64,000 nucleotides of DNA from assembly GCA_938082375.1 (NCBI GenBank), contig CALKCJ010000018.1:1-64000 (forward strand), given 5' to 3'. Each line of letters starts with the position of its first letter. Within the stretch, counting starts at the first letter, position 1. The notes under the pieces are model-generated. The model ran no database searches, was not told where the DNA came from, and was given only the letters and a program-made list of their open reading frames with translations. Source of the DNA: an uncultured Thermomicrobiaceae bacterium (GTDB taxonomy: Bacteria; Chloroflexota; Chloroflexia; Thermomicrobiales; Thermomicrobiaceae). Below are positions 21,270-26,913 of the stretch, in pieces. A program made the translations under genes and the position numbers.

Positions 21270-22184
21270 TTGAGTATAGCAAGAGGGGGCCCTACACTGG
21301 CGGCGATACGGGACCATGACCACGACGTCCCATACATCCCGACCCGAACCGACCTCTCGCCCGAGGCCGCTGTCGTCCAGGTCGATCTCGATCCGGTCAA
21401 AGAGCGGGTGCCGCTCTGGACGTTCCCTGTGGATCTGCCGGTCAGGGCGGACACCGGACGGGCGCTCGAGCTGATCGCGAGTTACCCCAGCGAGCTGCTT
21501 ACGGATGCCGACCGGCGACGGGTCGAGAGCCGGCGGGCCGAGCTGGCGGCCAGCCATGCTCGGCTGCGCCGGGAGTGGCGCCGCACAGCGCTGGAGCAGG
21601 CGAGCGCCCGGCCGATCGTCCCAGAGTGGCTGGGCTACTGCCTGGAGCAGCTCCGCCGCACGGCTCCCGAGCTCGTCTTCGTCGTGGAAGCGGTTACCAA
21701 CGCGGTGACAATCGCTTGCCAGGTTCAGGTCGCCAAGCACGGCACCTGGTACCAGAGCGGCGGCTCCGGCCTCGGCTGGGGCATCGGCGCGGCGGTGGGA
21801 ATCAAATTGGCACAGCCGGATCGCCCGGTCGTCGCCGTGGTGGGCGATGGGTCGTTCCTCTTCGGCGCGCCAGTCACCACGCTGTGGAGGGCGCTGACGA
21901 GCGGGGCGCCGGTGCTGGTCGTGATCTGCAACAACGCCTGCTATAACGCCACCAAGCAGCCGCTGATCGCCGCCTATCCCGAGGGGTACTCGGTGCGGCT
22001 GGATCGCTCCGTTGGGATCGACCTCGAGCCGGCCCCGCGCTACGATGTCCTGGCGACCTCGGTCGGGGCGTACGGCGAGCGCGTGGAGGAGCTAGCTGAG
22101 GTTCTGCCAGCGCTGGAGCGGGGGCTGGCGCGTGTGCGGGATGGGCAGTCAGCCGTCCTCGATGTGATCCTGGCACATCCGTAG
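21270..22184 (+). pseudogene. ThDP-dependent enzyme, C-terminal half only
   Basis: About 300 residues matching the middle and C-terminal domains of acetolactate-synthase/pyruvate-decarboxylase-type ThDP enzymes: DVPYIPTRTDLSPEAAVVQV and DLDPVKERVPLW (middle domain), then GSGLGWGIGAAVGIKLAQPD, the ThDP/Mg motif VVGDGSFLFG ... ICNNACYN, and a normal C-terminus. The N-terminal PYR domain (about 240 residues), which supplies the catalytic Glu, is missing, and the only start is a TTG without a usable ribosome site. Hence a 5'-truncated relic. Confidence 0.7.
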
Positions 22185-22229: not shown

Positions 22230-23735
22230 TCATTCTGCCTTCAGCGGATCCAACTGATCCGCGGTCGGCTCCGCTCAGCAGAACCATGATTCGGTGAGGC
22301 GTGGTGGCGGGGGACGATGCCCGCGTCGCGGCGGGTCTGCCGGAGGCTCAGTTCCGGCAGCAGCGCAGGCGAGCGCTCGCACCGCGACGAAGGTCACGTA
22401 GTTGTCCCAGCCTTCGCGCGTCGCCCGCTCGACCAGGGCTGCCACCTCACGCTGCAGGCGGTCGACGCGCGGGTCGGGATGGGTCCAGGTATAGGTAAAG
22501 GCGGCCTCGTCGAGCGGGCCGACCCACTCGGCGGCGTCCGGCCGATCGAGCAGCGCCGAGCCCGGCGGCACCAGCAGCCGGATCGAGAGGTGCACTGGGT
22601 CGACGTGCTCGATCAACCCCTGCTCCTCGAGGAAGTCGAGCAGCTCCAGGTAGTCCTCGAGCGTCGTCCACGGCGTGAACGGGAGCAGTGAGGGTCGCAT
22701 GGCGATGCCGGCCTCGTCCAGCACGCGCAGCGCCTCGACGACATCGGCCTTGCGGTGGCCCTTGTCGATCTTCTCCAGCACCAGGTCGCTCGCCGATTCG
22801 ACGGCCGAGACGACGAAGACGCACCCTAGGCGCCGGAACTCGGGGAAGAGCTCGCGGTGGCGCAGGATGTGCTCGATCCGGGTGGTGAAGTCGAAAGTGA
22901 CGTCCGGGAACTCCTCGTGCAGCGCCTGACAGACACGCAGGCTATGCGTGGGGCCGTTAAGGAAGTCGGGGTCGCCGAAGGTGATGTGGCGCACCCCCTG
23001 CCGCACCTGCCGCCGGATATCGGCCAGCACGACCTGGCGCGGGATGGCGAAGAAGCGCCCGCGGTAGACGGGCACGATCGGGCAGTGCAGGCAGGTGTGG
23101 TGGCAGCCGCGGGTCGTCTCGGTGTAGCCGGCCGGCACGGCGCGGCCGTCCATGACCAGGTAGGCGTAGTGGCGCGGCGGCGGCAGATCGGAGCGGTCAG
23201 GCTCCGGGAAGTCGATCCGGGCGAGCGACGGGCCGGCCCGGTGGGCGCGGTCGCTGACGCCGGGTACCGGGCCGGGTTCGCCGCGCTCCAGCGCCTGGAT
23301 CAGGCCGAGCAGCGGTGCCTCGTACTCGCCGCCGATGACGAAGTCGGCCCACTCGCGCAGCAGGTAGTCGGCGTTGAGCCAGGCGTAGAGGCCATAGAAG
23401 CAGAGCAGCGCGCCAGGGTTCCGGCGCCGGATGCGGGCAGCCAGCTCGACACCGAGCCGGAGCGCGGTATGCATCGGGACCGAGATGGCGACCAGCCGCG
23501 CGGCCGCAACGGTCGCGTCGTCCGGTGGGGCGACGGCCGCGTCCACGGCGACCGGCCGGTAGCCGGCACGGCGCAGGTAGGCCAGCGGGAAGGCCAGGTT
23601 GAGCGGCTGGTGGCCCAGCTCGTAGCAGGAGAGTAGCAGGATCGCTCCGGGCGCTTTCAGCTCGCGCGGCATCGGCTGGAGCCGAGCGACCGGCTGGCTG
23701 GCCGCGTCTCGGGTTGTCGTCGACAGCGAGGCCAT
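22230..23735 (-). CDS. B12-binding radical SAM protein with selenocysteine CUAEP tail (UGA recoded)
   Basis: Conventional reading stops at UGA 22277-22275 after ...ESWFC (486 residues). Reading UGA as selenocysteine continues in frame as C-U-A-E-P-T-A-D-Q-L-D-P-L-K-A-E and then TGA at 22230, total 501 residues. CUAEP is the tail that defines the known CUAEP/CCAEP-tail radical SAM family. The N-terminal half has a B12-binding-type Rossmann domain (PLAYLRRAGYRPVAVDAAVA), and the radical SAM cluster is C211, C215, C218 (RGCHHTCLHC). A perfect 7-bp hairpin lies 12 bases after the UGA. ATG 23735 has GAGGAG upstream. Substrate unknown. Selenocysteine machinery must be encoded elsewhere. Confidence 0.85.
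22244..22262 (-). promoter_or_regulatory. SECIS-like hairpin after the in-frame UGA
   Basis: On the transcript: GCGGATC-AGTTG-GATCCGC, a perfect seven-base-pair stem with a five-base loop. It begins 12 bases after the UGA, and the first loop G is 21 bases from it, within the range of known bacterial SECIS elements. CC/GG pairs at 22268-22267 and 22239-22238 could extend the stem past an internal loop. It lies inside the extended coding region, as bacterial SECIS elements do. Confidence 0.7.
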
Positions 23736-23807
23736 GCCTGGACTCCTCGACGGTGAGCGCCGTCGGCACCTAAGGGTAACAGCCGGGGGAGGGAGACCCA
23801 AGGAGCG

Positions 23808-25493
23808 TCAGGTCGGGATGCCGGGGTTGAACTCTTCTCCGGTGACGACCGCATCGCCACCGGAGTAGCCGGCTGCCGCGCCGTCCGCTCGCCAGCAGGC
23901 GCCCCCGCGGAGCAGGCCGGTCTCCTGGTCGATCAGGATGCCGTTCATCCCACCGGCCACTTTCGGAACGATTTGTACCACGTGCCCGCGCCGCTCCAGC
24001 TCGGCCGCCAGCTCCGGGAGGCGGTCGAACCCATGCTCGAGCTCGAGCACCGGCCCACGGTCGAAGAGCCGAGGCGCCTCCACCGCCTCCTGCACACTCA
24101 TGCCGAAATCGACGACGTTGACGATCGCTTGCAGCACCGCGCCGAAGATGCGCACGCCGCCAGGCGTGCCGATCGCCAGCAGTGGCTTCCCCGCTTTGAG
24201 GACGATGGTGGGCGACATCGAGGAGAGGATGCGCTTGCCCGGGGCGATCGAGTTGGTGCGGCCCGGGGTCGGATCCATCAGCTTCATGCAGTTGTTGAGG
24301 AGCATCCCGGTTCGGGGTATTGTGACTTTCGATCCGAATGCGCTGTTCAGCGTCTGCGTCGCCGAGACCACGTTCCCCTCGGCATCCACGGCACAGCAGT
24401 GAGTCGTGCAGGCCCCTTCCCCGTCCGGCGCGATCCCGGCCGCGTACTGTTGGGCCCGTCCCAAGTCGATCTGCGCCCGCCGCTCGGCGGCGTAGTCCTT
24501 GGATATGAGCCACTCGACCGGTACCTGTACCCGCTCGGGGTCGGCGAGGTAGCGGGCGCGGTCGGCGAAGGCGATCTTCATCGTCTCGGCGATCAGGTGC
24601 ACGGTGTCGGGCGTGCCGAAGCCCATGGCCGCGAGGTCGAACCCTTCGAGGATGTTCAGCATCTGGACGATGTGGACGCCGCCAGAGGAAGCTGGCCCCA
24701 TCGAGACGATCTCGCAGCCTCGGTAGGTGCCGCGTACCGGCTCGCGCTCATAGACGCGGTAGCGCGCCAGATCGTCCAGTGTGACCAGCCCGCCGTGGAG
24801 CGCCATGTCGCGCGCGACCGCCTGGCCGAGCGGGCCGTCGTAGAGGTAGCCGACACCCTCAGTAGCGATGCACGCAAGGGTAGTCGCGTAGTCGGGGCGG
24901 CAGAGAACGGAGCCGACCGGCGCGGGCACGCCCCCTGGCAGGAAAACCTCGGCCGAGGCGGGGAAGCGACGGAGCGCGTCCGCGCACAGCCGGATGAACC
25001 CATGGAGGTATGGGCTGACTCGGAAGCCCTGGCGCGCATAGCGCACCGCTGGCTCCAGCACGACCGCCAGTGGGAGGCGGCCATAGCGCTCGAGCGCCGT
25101 CGTCCAGCCGAGCAGGCTGCCAGGTGTGGCCACGGCCAGGTAGCCGGTATCGTTGAGCCCGCCCTCCACCTCATTGTCCAGCGAGCCGGGGATCGGCACG
25201 TACATGTCCTCGCGCGCCGCCAGTGGCACGACGGCGTAGTTGTCGATCGTCATCAGCCTGCCGTCGGCGAGCCGGATGGTGAAGAAGCCGGCTCCGAAGA
25301 TCGAGACCATCATCGGCTCGACCACCGAGAGCGCGAACAGCGTCGCCACCGCGGCGTCGATCGCGTTACCGCCCCGCATCAGCATCTCGACGCCGGCCAG
25401 CGAGGCCAGCGGGTGGTTCGCGGTTACCATTCCCAGCGAGGCGGTCGCCTCGCGCTTGATCGTCGGTCGGCCAGTTGCACCCTTCTCACGCAT
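23808..25493 (-). CDS. ggt: Gamma-glutamyltransferase
   Basis: A 561-residue member of the Ntn-hydrolase gamma-glutamyltranspeptidase family, made as a precursor that self-cleaves at the catalytic threonine. T363 (GACTTHCCAVDAEGNVVSAT) is the predicted nucleophile and new N-terminus of the small subunit. Other family blocks: GGNAIDAAVATLFALSVVEP near the start, GMLLNNCMKLMD, and SSMSPTIV ... IGTPGG. It cleaves or transfers the gamma-glutamyl group of glutathione-like substrates. No signal peptide is visible, so it is probably cytoplasmic. The alternative upstream starts add an unrelated basic segment; ATG 25493 is preferred. Confidence 0.92.
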   Translation of the reverse strand: MREKGATGRPTIKREATASLGMVTANHPLASLAGVEMLMRGGNAIDAAVATLFALSVVEPMMVSIFGAGFFTIRLADGRLMTIDNYAVVPLAAREDMYVPIPGSLDNEVEGGLNDTGYLAVATPGSLLGWTTALERYGRLPLAVVLEPAVRYARQGFRVSPYLHGFIRLCADALRRFPASAEVFLPGGVPAPVGSVLCRPDYATTLACIATEGVGYLYDGPLGQAVARDMALHGGLVTLDDLARYRVYEREPVRGTYRGCEIVSMGPASSGGVHIVQMLNILEGFDLAAMGFGTPDTVHLIAETMKIAFADRARYLADPERVQVPVEWLISKDYAAERRAQIDLGRAQQYAAGIAPDGEGACTTHCCAVDAEGNVVSATQTLNSAFGSKVTIPRTGMLLNNCMKLMDPTPGRTNSIAPGKRILSSMSPTIVLKAGKPLLAIGTPGGVRIFGAVLQAIVNVVDFGMSVQEAVEAPRLFDRGPVLELEHGFDRLPELAAELERRGHVVQIVPKVAGGMNGILIDQETGLLRGGACWRADGAAAGYSGGDAVVTGEEFNPGIPT

Positions 25494-25704
25494 CGTTCGT
25501 GCTCGATCCCCCCACAGGACTCGTAGCCGCGCCGGTCGCGCCAGTGCACGATACGCCTTGAAGGCGCGACGAGCAAGACGGCGTTGGGTCGCGCTTTCGG
25601 AGCGACGGGGGCTTGCGTGTGTACAGGCCGTCTGAGAGCGCCAGGATGGTACGATGGCAGGGGAGCGGGCTGGCAGGCGTGCGACGTGCCAGTGGAGATC
25701 GCGG

Positions 25705-26913
25705 ATGGGCGACACGATGCGGATGGGGCCATCGAGGCGGGCACGGGGGTTGCCGCCCTCGCCGATCCGGGCGCTAGCCCCGCTGGCCGAGGCGGCGAAG
25801 CGACGCGGCGTGCGAGTGATCCATCTCAACATCGGCCAGCCTGACCTGCCGCCGCCGGCCTGCGTGCTTGAGGCGCTGGAAGCGGCGAGCCGGCTAGCAC
25901 TGGTATACGCACCGGCCCGGGGATTGCCGGAGACAGTTGGGGGCTGGTGCGCCTATTACCGGAGGCAGGGGATCGAGGTTGAGCCCGACGAGGTGCTCGT
26001 CACCGCTGGCGCCAGCGAGGCGCTCTGGTTAGCGTTGCTCGCGACCACAGATCCCGGCGACGAGGTGCTGGTGCCCGAGCCGTTCTACGCACCCTACCAG
26101 GGGCTGCTGGCGGCAGCGGGTCTCACGCTGGTACCGGTACCGCCGGGCCCTGGCCTCGACCCGCCCGATCCGGCCGAGCTGCGGGCGAGGGTCACGCCGC
26201 GCACCCGTGCGATCTTGCTCTGCAGCCCGGCGAACCCGTCCGGTGCCGTTTGGGAACGGGCGGCCCTGACTGCGGCGGGCGAGCTGGCTCGCCAGGCCGG
26301 CCTGTATCTCCTCTCCGACGAGACTTATCGGGAGATCGTCTTCGATGGGCCGCGGGCGACCAGTGTGCTCGAGCTGCCGGGCCTCGAGGAGCACGCGGTC
26401 GTGATCGACAGCCTCTCGAAGCGGTTCAACGTCTGCGGGCTCCGCATCGGCAGTCTCACGACCCGGAACCGCGCGGTGATGGCCGCGGCGTTGGAGCTCG
26501 CCGAGCTGCGGCTGGCGCTTCCGGTCGTCGACCAGCTCGCGGTCGTCGGTGCGCTGGCTGCCCCGCGCCCGTACGTGGACGAGGTGGTGGCGGCGTACCG
26601 TGCCCGGCGCGACGCCACGCTGGCCGCCCTGTCAACCGTCCCCGGGGTCGAGGCCCACCGGCCGGGCGGCGCGTTCTACATCGTCGTGCGTCTACCGGTG
26701 GACGACGCCGAGCACTTCGCCGCCTGGCTCCTGGCCGGGTTCGCGTACGGGGGCGAGACGGTGATGCTCACGCCGATGCGCAACTTCTATGCCACGCCTG
26801 GAGCCGGCAGTACCGAGGTGCGGCTGGCGCTGGTGCACGGGCCAGAGACGCTGGTGCGGGCGGTCGAGATCCTGGCGGCCGGGTTGGCGGCCTATCCAGG
26901 CGGTGTCGGGTAA
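25705..26913 (+). CDS. PLP-dependent aminotransferase (class I/II)
   Basis: A 402-residue fold-type I aminotransferase. Visible features: LNIGQPDLPPP (substrate loop), SPANPSGAVW with PLP-binding Asn, SDETYREIVFDG with the PLP-pyridine Asp, and the Schiff-base lysine K239 in DSLSKRFNVCGLRIG. C-terminal Arg region VRLALVHGPETL fits the carboxylate-binding segment. Likely aspartate- or aromatic-type; specificity unproven. ATG 25705 has GGAGA seven bases upstream. Divergent from ggt. Confidence 0.92.
   Translation: MGDTMRMGPSRRARGLPPSPIRALAPLAEAAKRRGVRVIHLNIGQPDLPPPACVLEALEAASRLALVYAPARGLPETVGGWCAYYRRQGIEVEPDEVLVTAGASEALWLALLATTDPGDEVLVPEPFYAPYQGLLAAAGLTLVPVPPGPGLDPPDPAELRARVTPRTRAILLCSPANPSGAVWERAALTAAGELARQAGLYLLSDETYREIVFDGPRATSVLELPGLEEHAVVIDSLSKRFNVCGLRIGSLTTRNRAVMAAALELAELRLALPVVDQLAVVGALAAPRPYVDEVVAAYRARRDATLAALSTVPGVEAHRPGGAFYIVVRLPVDDAEHFAAWLLAGFAYGGETVMLTPMRNFYATPGAGSTEVRLALVHGPETLVRAVEILAAGLAAYPGGVG

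Follow-up and report, generated by a model that had tools for sequence, protein, structure and literature searches.

A predicted CUAEP-tail radical SAM selenoprotein of a Thermomicrobiaceae bacterium and its relation to ArsL

The gene, its family and its tail

We analyzed a stretch of 64,000 nucleotides from an uncultured Thermomicrobiaceae bacterium (positions 1–64,000 of contig CALKCJ010000018.1), referred to as the window. Its minus strand carries a gene for a radical SAM enzyme that is interrupted by an in-frame UGA. The frame starting with the ATG at 23735 runs to ...RLTESWFC, meets UGA at 22277–22275, continues with AEPTADQLDPLKAE and ends at a second TGA (22232–22230). Reading the first of the two codons as selenocysteine (Sec) adds 15 residues (UAEPTADQLDPLKAE). 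The translation agreed exactly with a preliminary description of this DNA as to the coordinates, the UGA position, the ...ESWFC end and the 15-residue extension. The features of the gene are listed in Table 1.

Table 1. Features of the CUAEP-tail gene in the window.
Feature	Position	Strand	Description	Basis
CUAEP-tail radical SAM selenoprotein gene (predicted)	22230..23735	(-)	501 aa with Sec; final stop TGA 22232-22230	translation and profile scores
In-frame UGA, probably read as Sec	22275..22277	(-)	residue 487	UGA or Cys codon at the same position in homologues; Sec machinery in the genome
C-terminal tail (predicted)	22233..22280	(-)	C-U-A-E-P-T-A-D-Q-L-D-P-L-K-A-E, residues 486-501	homologue conservation
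Radical SAM [4Fe-4S] motif	23082..23105	(-)	CX3CX2C; C211, C215, C218	invariant in 45 homologues; aligns with the CX3CX2C of ArsL
N-terminal Rossmann-like, B12-binding-like domain	23307..23636	(-)		PF02310, 21.9 bits, below the cut-off of 32.1
Putative bSECIS hairpin	22244..22262	(-)	GCGGAUC(AGUUG)GAUCCGC; 7-bp stem, 5-nt loop; -12.1 kcal/mol	covariation; published rules
Possible ribosome-binding site	23743..23748	(-)	GAGGAG, 7 nt before the ATG	sequence

A Pfam search of the protein resulted in a match to Radical_SAM (PF04055) of 55.7 bits. The NCBIfam profile NF040546, annotated as "CUAEP/CCAEP-tail radical SAM (seleno)protein", scored 772.4 bits (cut-off 500) and was matched from position 1 to 467 of 468, through the UGA. 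The C-[U/C]-A-E-P tail of this family is present in the sequence as FC-UGA-AEP. The family name that had been suggested from the sequence alone is therefore confirmed by a full-length score above the cut-off. NF040546 is an already known, named family, to which the window gene is an addition. We found no description of its function in the literature searched, a text search for CUAEP gave no match, and the family is not named in a 2026 review (PMC13188914). The second-best family was ArsL (NF040542), a radical SAM enzyme with an RCCLKC tail that acts in arsinothricin synthesis; it scored 314.5 bits, under a cut-off of 450.

For comparison we used 80 named loci from GTDB genomes together with further phylum loci. 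The search pattern for the 80 loci included WFCCAEP, so that tail conservation among them is partly due to selection; this bias largely spares the order and the phylum loci, which were searched with the full 468-column profile. The gene was recognizable in 46 of 61 genomes of the order, 43 of which contain exactly one internal TGA, at the tail position, and three (G035, G046 and G060) a TGC. In an alignment of 45 homologues C-[U/C]-A-E-P is invariant and the following T and Q are nearly so. The comparison with CCAEP homologues that the preliminary description had called for thus yielded a conserved tail with a UGA or a Cys codon at exactly this place.

UGA forms occur in Thermomicrobia, many Ktedonobacteria, Gemmatimonadota, Rokubacteria, Poribacteria, one planctomycete and two acidobacteria, Cys-codon forms in Nitrospirota, Thermogemmatispora, Dictyobacter and others. 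A maximum-likelihood tree, calculated by a quick method and with many weak inner branches, implies at least eight switches between Sec and Cys. These repeated switches provide matched natural pairs for asking how selenium benefits a radical enzyme. The tails of Thermogemmatispora are extended and Cys-rich. One ktedonobacterial copy (L162, G386:C4) has UGA, AEPA and an early TAG, and may carry a degenerate tail or one with a different end. Thermomicrobium sp. CFH 73360 contains two copies of the gene on different contigs (G023:C2 and G023:C35; L029, L063, L072, L079), which encode an identical protein.

Decoding of the UGA

The window hairpin begins 12 nt past the UGA, with a gap of 19 nt between UGA and loop. 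Published rules for bSECIS elements demand a loop of 3–9 nt, a stem of 4–16 bp, a G in the first two loop positions, a distance of 16–37 nt from the UGA and an MFE of -7.5 kcal/mol or lower (PMC13188914), all of which it satisfies. Taken singly and compared with shuffles, this hairpin is weak (z -1.97). In the 28 UGA forms, however, the stem positions pair in 87% of cells versus 72% in shuffles, and cells changed on both sides number 32 versus 10.7, a value reached in none of 500 shuffles. Sliding the partner column by one reduces pairing to 50% or less. The case for a SECIS element is therefore carried by covariation and not by the shuffle test of the window hairpin. Among the Cys forms, pairing at the inner stem positions does not exceed that of shuffles, and the region folds less well (Mann-Whitney p ~1e-8; the rows are related, and the p-values for the hairpin overstate their independence). 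As judged from these sequences, the hairpin is mostly lost in Cys homologues. The Cys (TGT) form of Thermogemmatispora carboxidivorans (L087, 9860-11506) retains a strong SECIS-like hairpin, which is likely a relic of a recent change from Sec to Cys.

The genome of the window (61 contigs, 99.97% complete) contains a tRNA-Sec with a UCA anticodon (73.5 bits), selA (532 bits), selB and selD (368 bits). The set of genes proposed for a search, on the claim that the organism makes Sec, was thus found in full. The selD gene (G000:C39:18-950, locus L168) has an in-frame UGA of its own at the catalytic site (CAG-UGA-AGK); going by this codon, SelD is likely a second selenoprotein of the genome.

Within the order, selB or tRNA-Sec was detected in 40 of the 43 genomes with a UGA form versus 9 of the 18 others (Fisher p 4e-4, an indicative value since related genomes are not independent). 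The three UGA-form genomes lacking both are 72–77% complete, and neither gene was found in the three Cys-form genomes. Of 37 UGA-form genomes outside the order, only one (G271, 86% complete) showed neither selB nor tRNA-Sec. Cys forms of Chloroflexota often retain selB, so loss of the Sec machinery cannot explain every switch between Sec and Cys.

TGA serves as an ordinary stop here too, and the CUAEP gene itself terminates in one. The first UGA might accordingly be a genuine stop, followed by a tail that is conserved by coincidence or untranslated. The AEP does not vary from phylum to phylum, homologues have Cys codons in this position, the hairpin covaries and the Sec genes are present, all of which makes this extremely improbable. 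The same independent lines of comparative evidence, with the interchange of UGA and Cys codons and the Sec machinery of nearly all UGA-form genomes, uphold the Sec reading of the preliminary description: the UGA is almost certainly decoded as Sec, giving an NF040546 radical SAM enzyme with a predicted Cys-Sec-Ala-Glu-Pro tail. When gene calling ends the frame at this UGA, the most conserved residues of the enzyme are lost, as exemplified by the record of Thermomicrobium roseum.

Fold, gene partners and possible reaction

An AlphaFold model of the protein reached a pLDDT of 90.3 (73–79 for tail residues 471–490) and a pTM of 0.89. A fold search against solved structures ranked AprD4 first, followed by OxsB, TsrM and TokK, of which OxsB and TsrM are cobalamin-dependent. 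The predicted fold is class B-like with AprD4 as the best match. In the N-terminal domain no DxHxxG was seen in the alignment. Cobalamin binding, which the preliminary description had assumed, finds no clear support: the PF02310 score lies below its cut-off (Table 1), and AprD4 precedes OxsB and TsrM as structural match.

Neighbors of the CUAEP gene among the 80 loci, given as lower bounds since flanks are often short, are an ATP-grasp gene whose C-terminal domain is of the L-amino-acid-ligase type (28 loci in five phyla: Nitrospirota 15, Ktedonobacteria 9, Rokubacteria 2, one acidobacterium and one planctomycete), YggX, directly upstream of the CUAEP gene (28 loci, mostly Ktedonobacteria), and a formyltransferase-like gene (~28 loci). 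DUF169 (19 loci) and NfuA-like genes (7 loci) also occur nearby. In the window the CUAEP gene stands apart from these partners, next to genes for a gamma-glutamyltransferase and a TPP enzyme. The former (upstream, 23808–25832) was rejected as a partner; it lies near the gene only in G017 and G018 among 12 relatives and is absent in T. roseum. The latter (21270–22184, plus strand) is 5'-truncated and aligns only with residues 341–628 of the 628-residue frame of G018 (88% identity).

Elsewhere in the window's genome, at G000:C1:112551-113765, an orthologous ligase gene (58% identity) lies together with YggX and a formyltransferase-like gene. This cluster continues with an epimerase, metK, ahcY and mtnA (L177 8874-16451, G000:C1), an adjacency of metK, ahcY and mtnA seen only within one bacterial family. 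Similar clusters were observed in G028, G017 and G021. In the order the ligase is present in 40 of 46 genomes with the CUAEP gene versus 6 of 15 without it (Fisher p 7e-4, likewise indicative, the related genomes not being independent), and it adjoins YggX in 28 of the 46. A link to YggX by phylogenetic profile was rejected, since YggX is found in 32 of the 46 genomes with the CUAEP gene and in 12 of the 15 without; what connects the two is adjacency.

SelB and tRNA-Sec almost certainly decode UGA 22277–22275 as Sec, directed by the downstream bSECIS hairpin. For the reaction we propose a scheme based on the closest characterized relative, ArsL (36% identity over 417 residues); together with the gene partners, this relative suggests a small-molecule pathway similar to that of arsinothricin. 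The enzyme, like ArsL, would cleave SAM to a 3-amino-3-carboxypropyl radical and release methylthioadenosine. This radical would be added to a soft acceptor that is bound or kept reduced by the Cys and Sec of the tail, which correspond to Cys-Cys in ArsL, and the resulting amino acid would be processed by the amino-acid ligase and perhaps the formyltransferase. By analogy such a reaction is possible, and we put it forward tentatively, as an identity of 36% does not fix a reaction. Methylthioadenosine is the by-product of ArsL-type cleavage, and mtnA helps to salvage it. The adjacency of mtnA, a housekeeping gene seen there in one family only, fits the release of methylthioadenosine but is suggestive only. 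Since the gene partners do not change in Cys forms, Sec would be a catalytic or ligand residue rather than part of the product. The roles suggested for the pair in the preliminary description, a redox site or a substrate handle, are conjectural; the comparison with ArsL mildly favors a soft-ligand or substrate role. The acceptor need not be arsenic, because arsM, arsR, arsN and arsQ are essentially absent near the CUAEP gene.

The ranking of the fold search, with AprD4 ahead of OxsB, TsrM and TokK, is also consistent with a selenoprotein that catalyzes an ordinary 5'-deoxyadenosyl or methyl-transfer reaction of the AprD4 or class B-like type, in which Cys-Sec would serve as redox or hydrogen-atom donor or as disulfide reductant during turnover. 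A vicinal Cys-Sec near the C-terminus resembles the redox tails of the thioredoxin-reductase type, which speaks for this alternative as well. By sequence, however, ArsL is the closest family with 314 bits, against 27 bits for AprD4 and 54 bits for BchE, and it too has the vicinal Cys pair; we regard such a reaction as a serious candidate at somewhat less than even chances. The same homology and the shared vicinal Cys tail could be taken further to a selenoprotein version of ArsL proper, which binds As(III) via Cys-Sec and forms hydroxyarsinothricin or a related organoarsenical. An ArsB/CitMHS-type transporter upstream in seven Ktedonobacteria loci would agree with this, but it scores equally as a citrate transporter. 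Moreover, the ArsL score is below the cut-off (314 of 450), homologues of arsR, arsN and arsQ occur in none of the 80 loci, and an arsM-like gene in one, weakly. An arsenic enzyme is thus improbable, and arsenic detoxification was rejected as the main reading of the gene context, relatives of arsR, arsM, arsN and arsQ being essentially absent from the 80 loci.

Taken as a whole, a Sec-decoded NF040546 enzyme with an inferred ArsL-like reaction is very probably the best explanation. More speculatively, and rather unlikely in all its parts, the gene could belong to a widespread and as yet undescribed small-molecule pathway, in which an ArsL-like enzyme holds a soft acceptor with its C-terminal Cys-Sec or Cys-Cys pair and transfers the aminocarboxypropyl group from SAM to this acceptor, the ligase and the formyltransferase-like enzyme finish the product, and YggX and proteins of the NfuA type take care of the iron-sulfur cluster. 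Such a pathway, if real, would be found mostly in bacteria of soil, sediment and hot springs. The gene partners and the comparison with ArsL offer a concrete, testable guess at the function of this radical SAM selenoprotein family.

Comparison with known systems

The window protein resembles NF040546 over its whole length, in score, tail and UGA position, and nothing was found that excludes membership. The orthologue of T. roseum is already annotated with the NF040546 name; the annotated protein, however, stops at the UGA and lacks the tail. With the AprD4/OxsB/TsrM group the overall fold is alike (TM-score ~0.6) at an identity of 19% or less, and to our knowledge no Cys-Sec tail occurs in that group. 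ArsS (TIGR04167) and TrsS (NF045646) are other radical SAM selenoprotein families covered by the 2026 review (PMC13188914), and both are absent among the families matched by the window protein.

Three plasmid-encoded ArsL proteins end in RCCLKC, and in the alignment the Cys pair of this end falls on FC[U/C] in the CUAEP tail. ArsL differs in this end without AEP, in the lack of a stretch of ~40 residues before the tail and in its arsenic operon context; the window protein ends in FCUAEP, and no ArsL-type partner genes were found in the window. Both share the CX3CX2C motif, the position of the C-terminal vicinal Cys pair and, at some loci, the ATP-grasp gene, which in the case of ArsL is found in Alicyclobacillus and Priestia.
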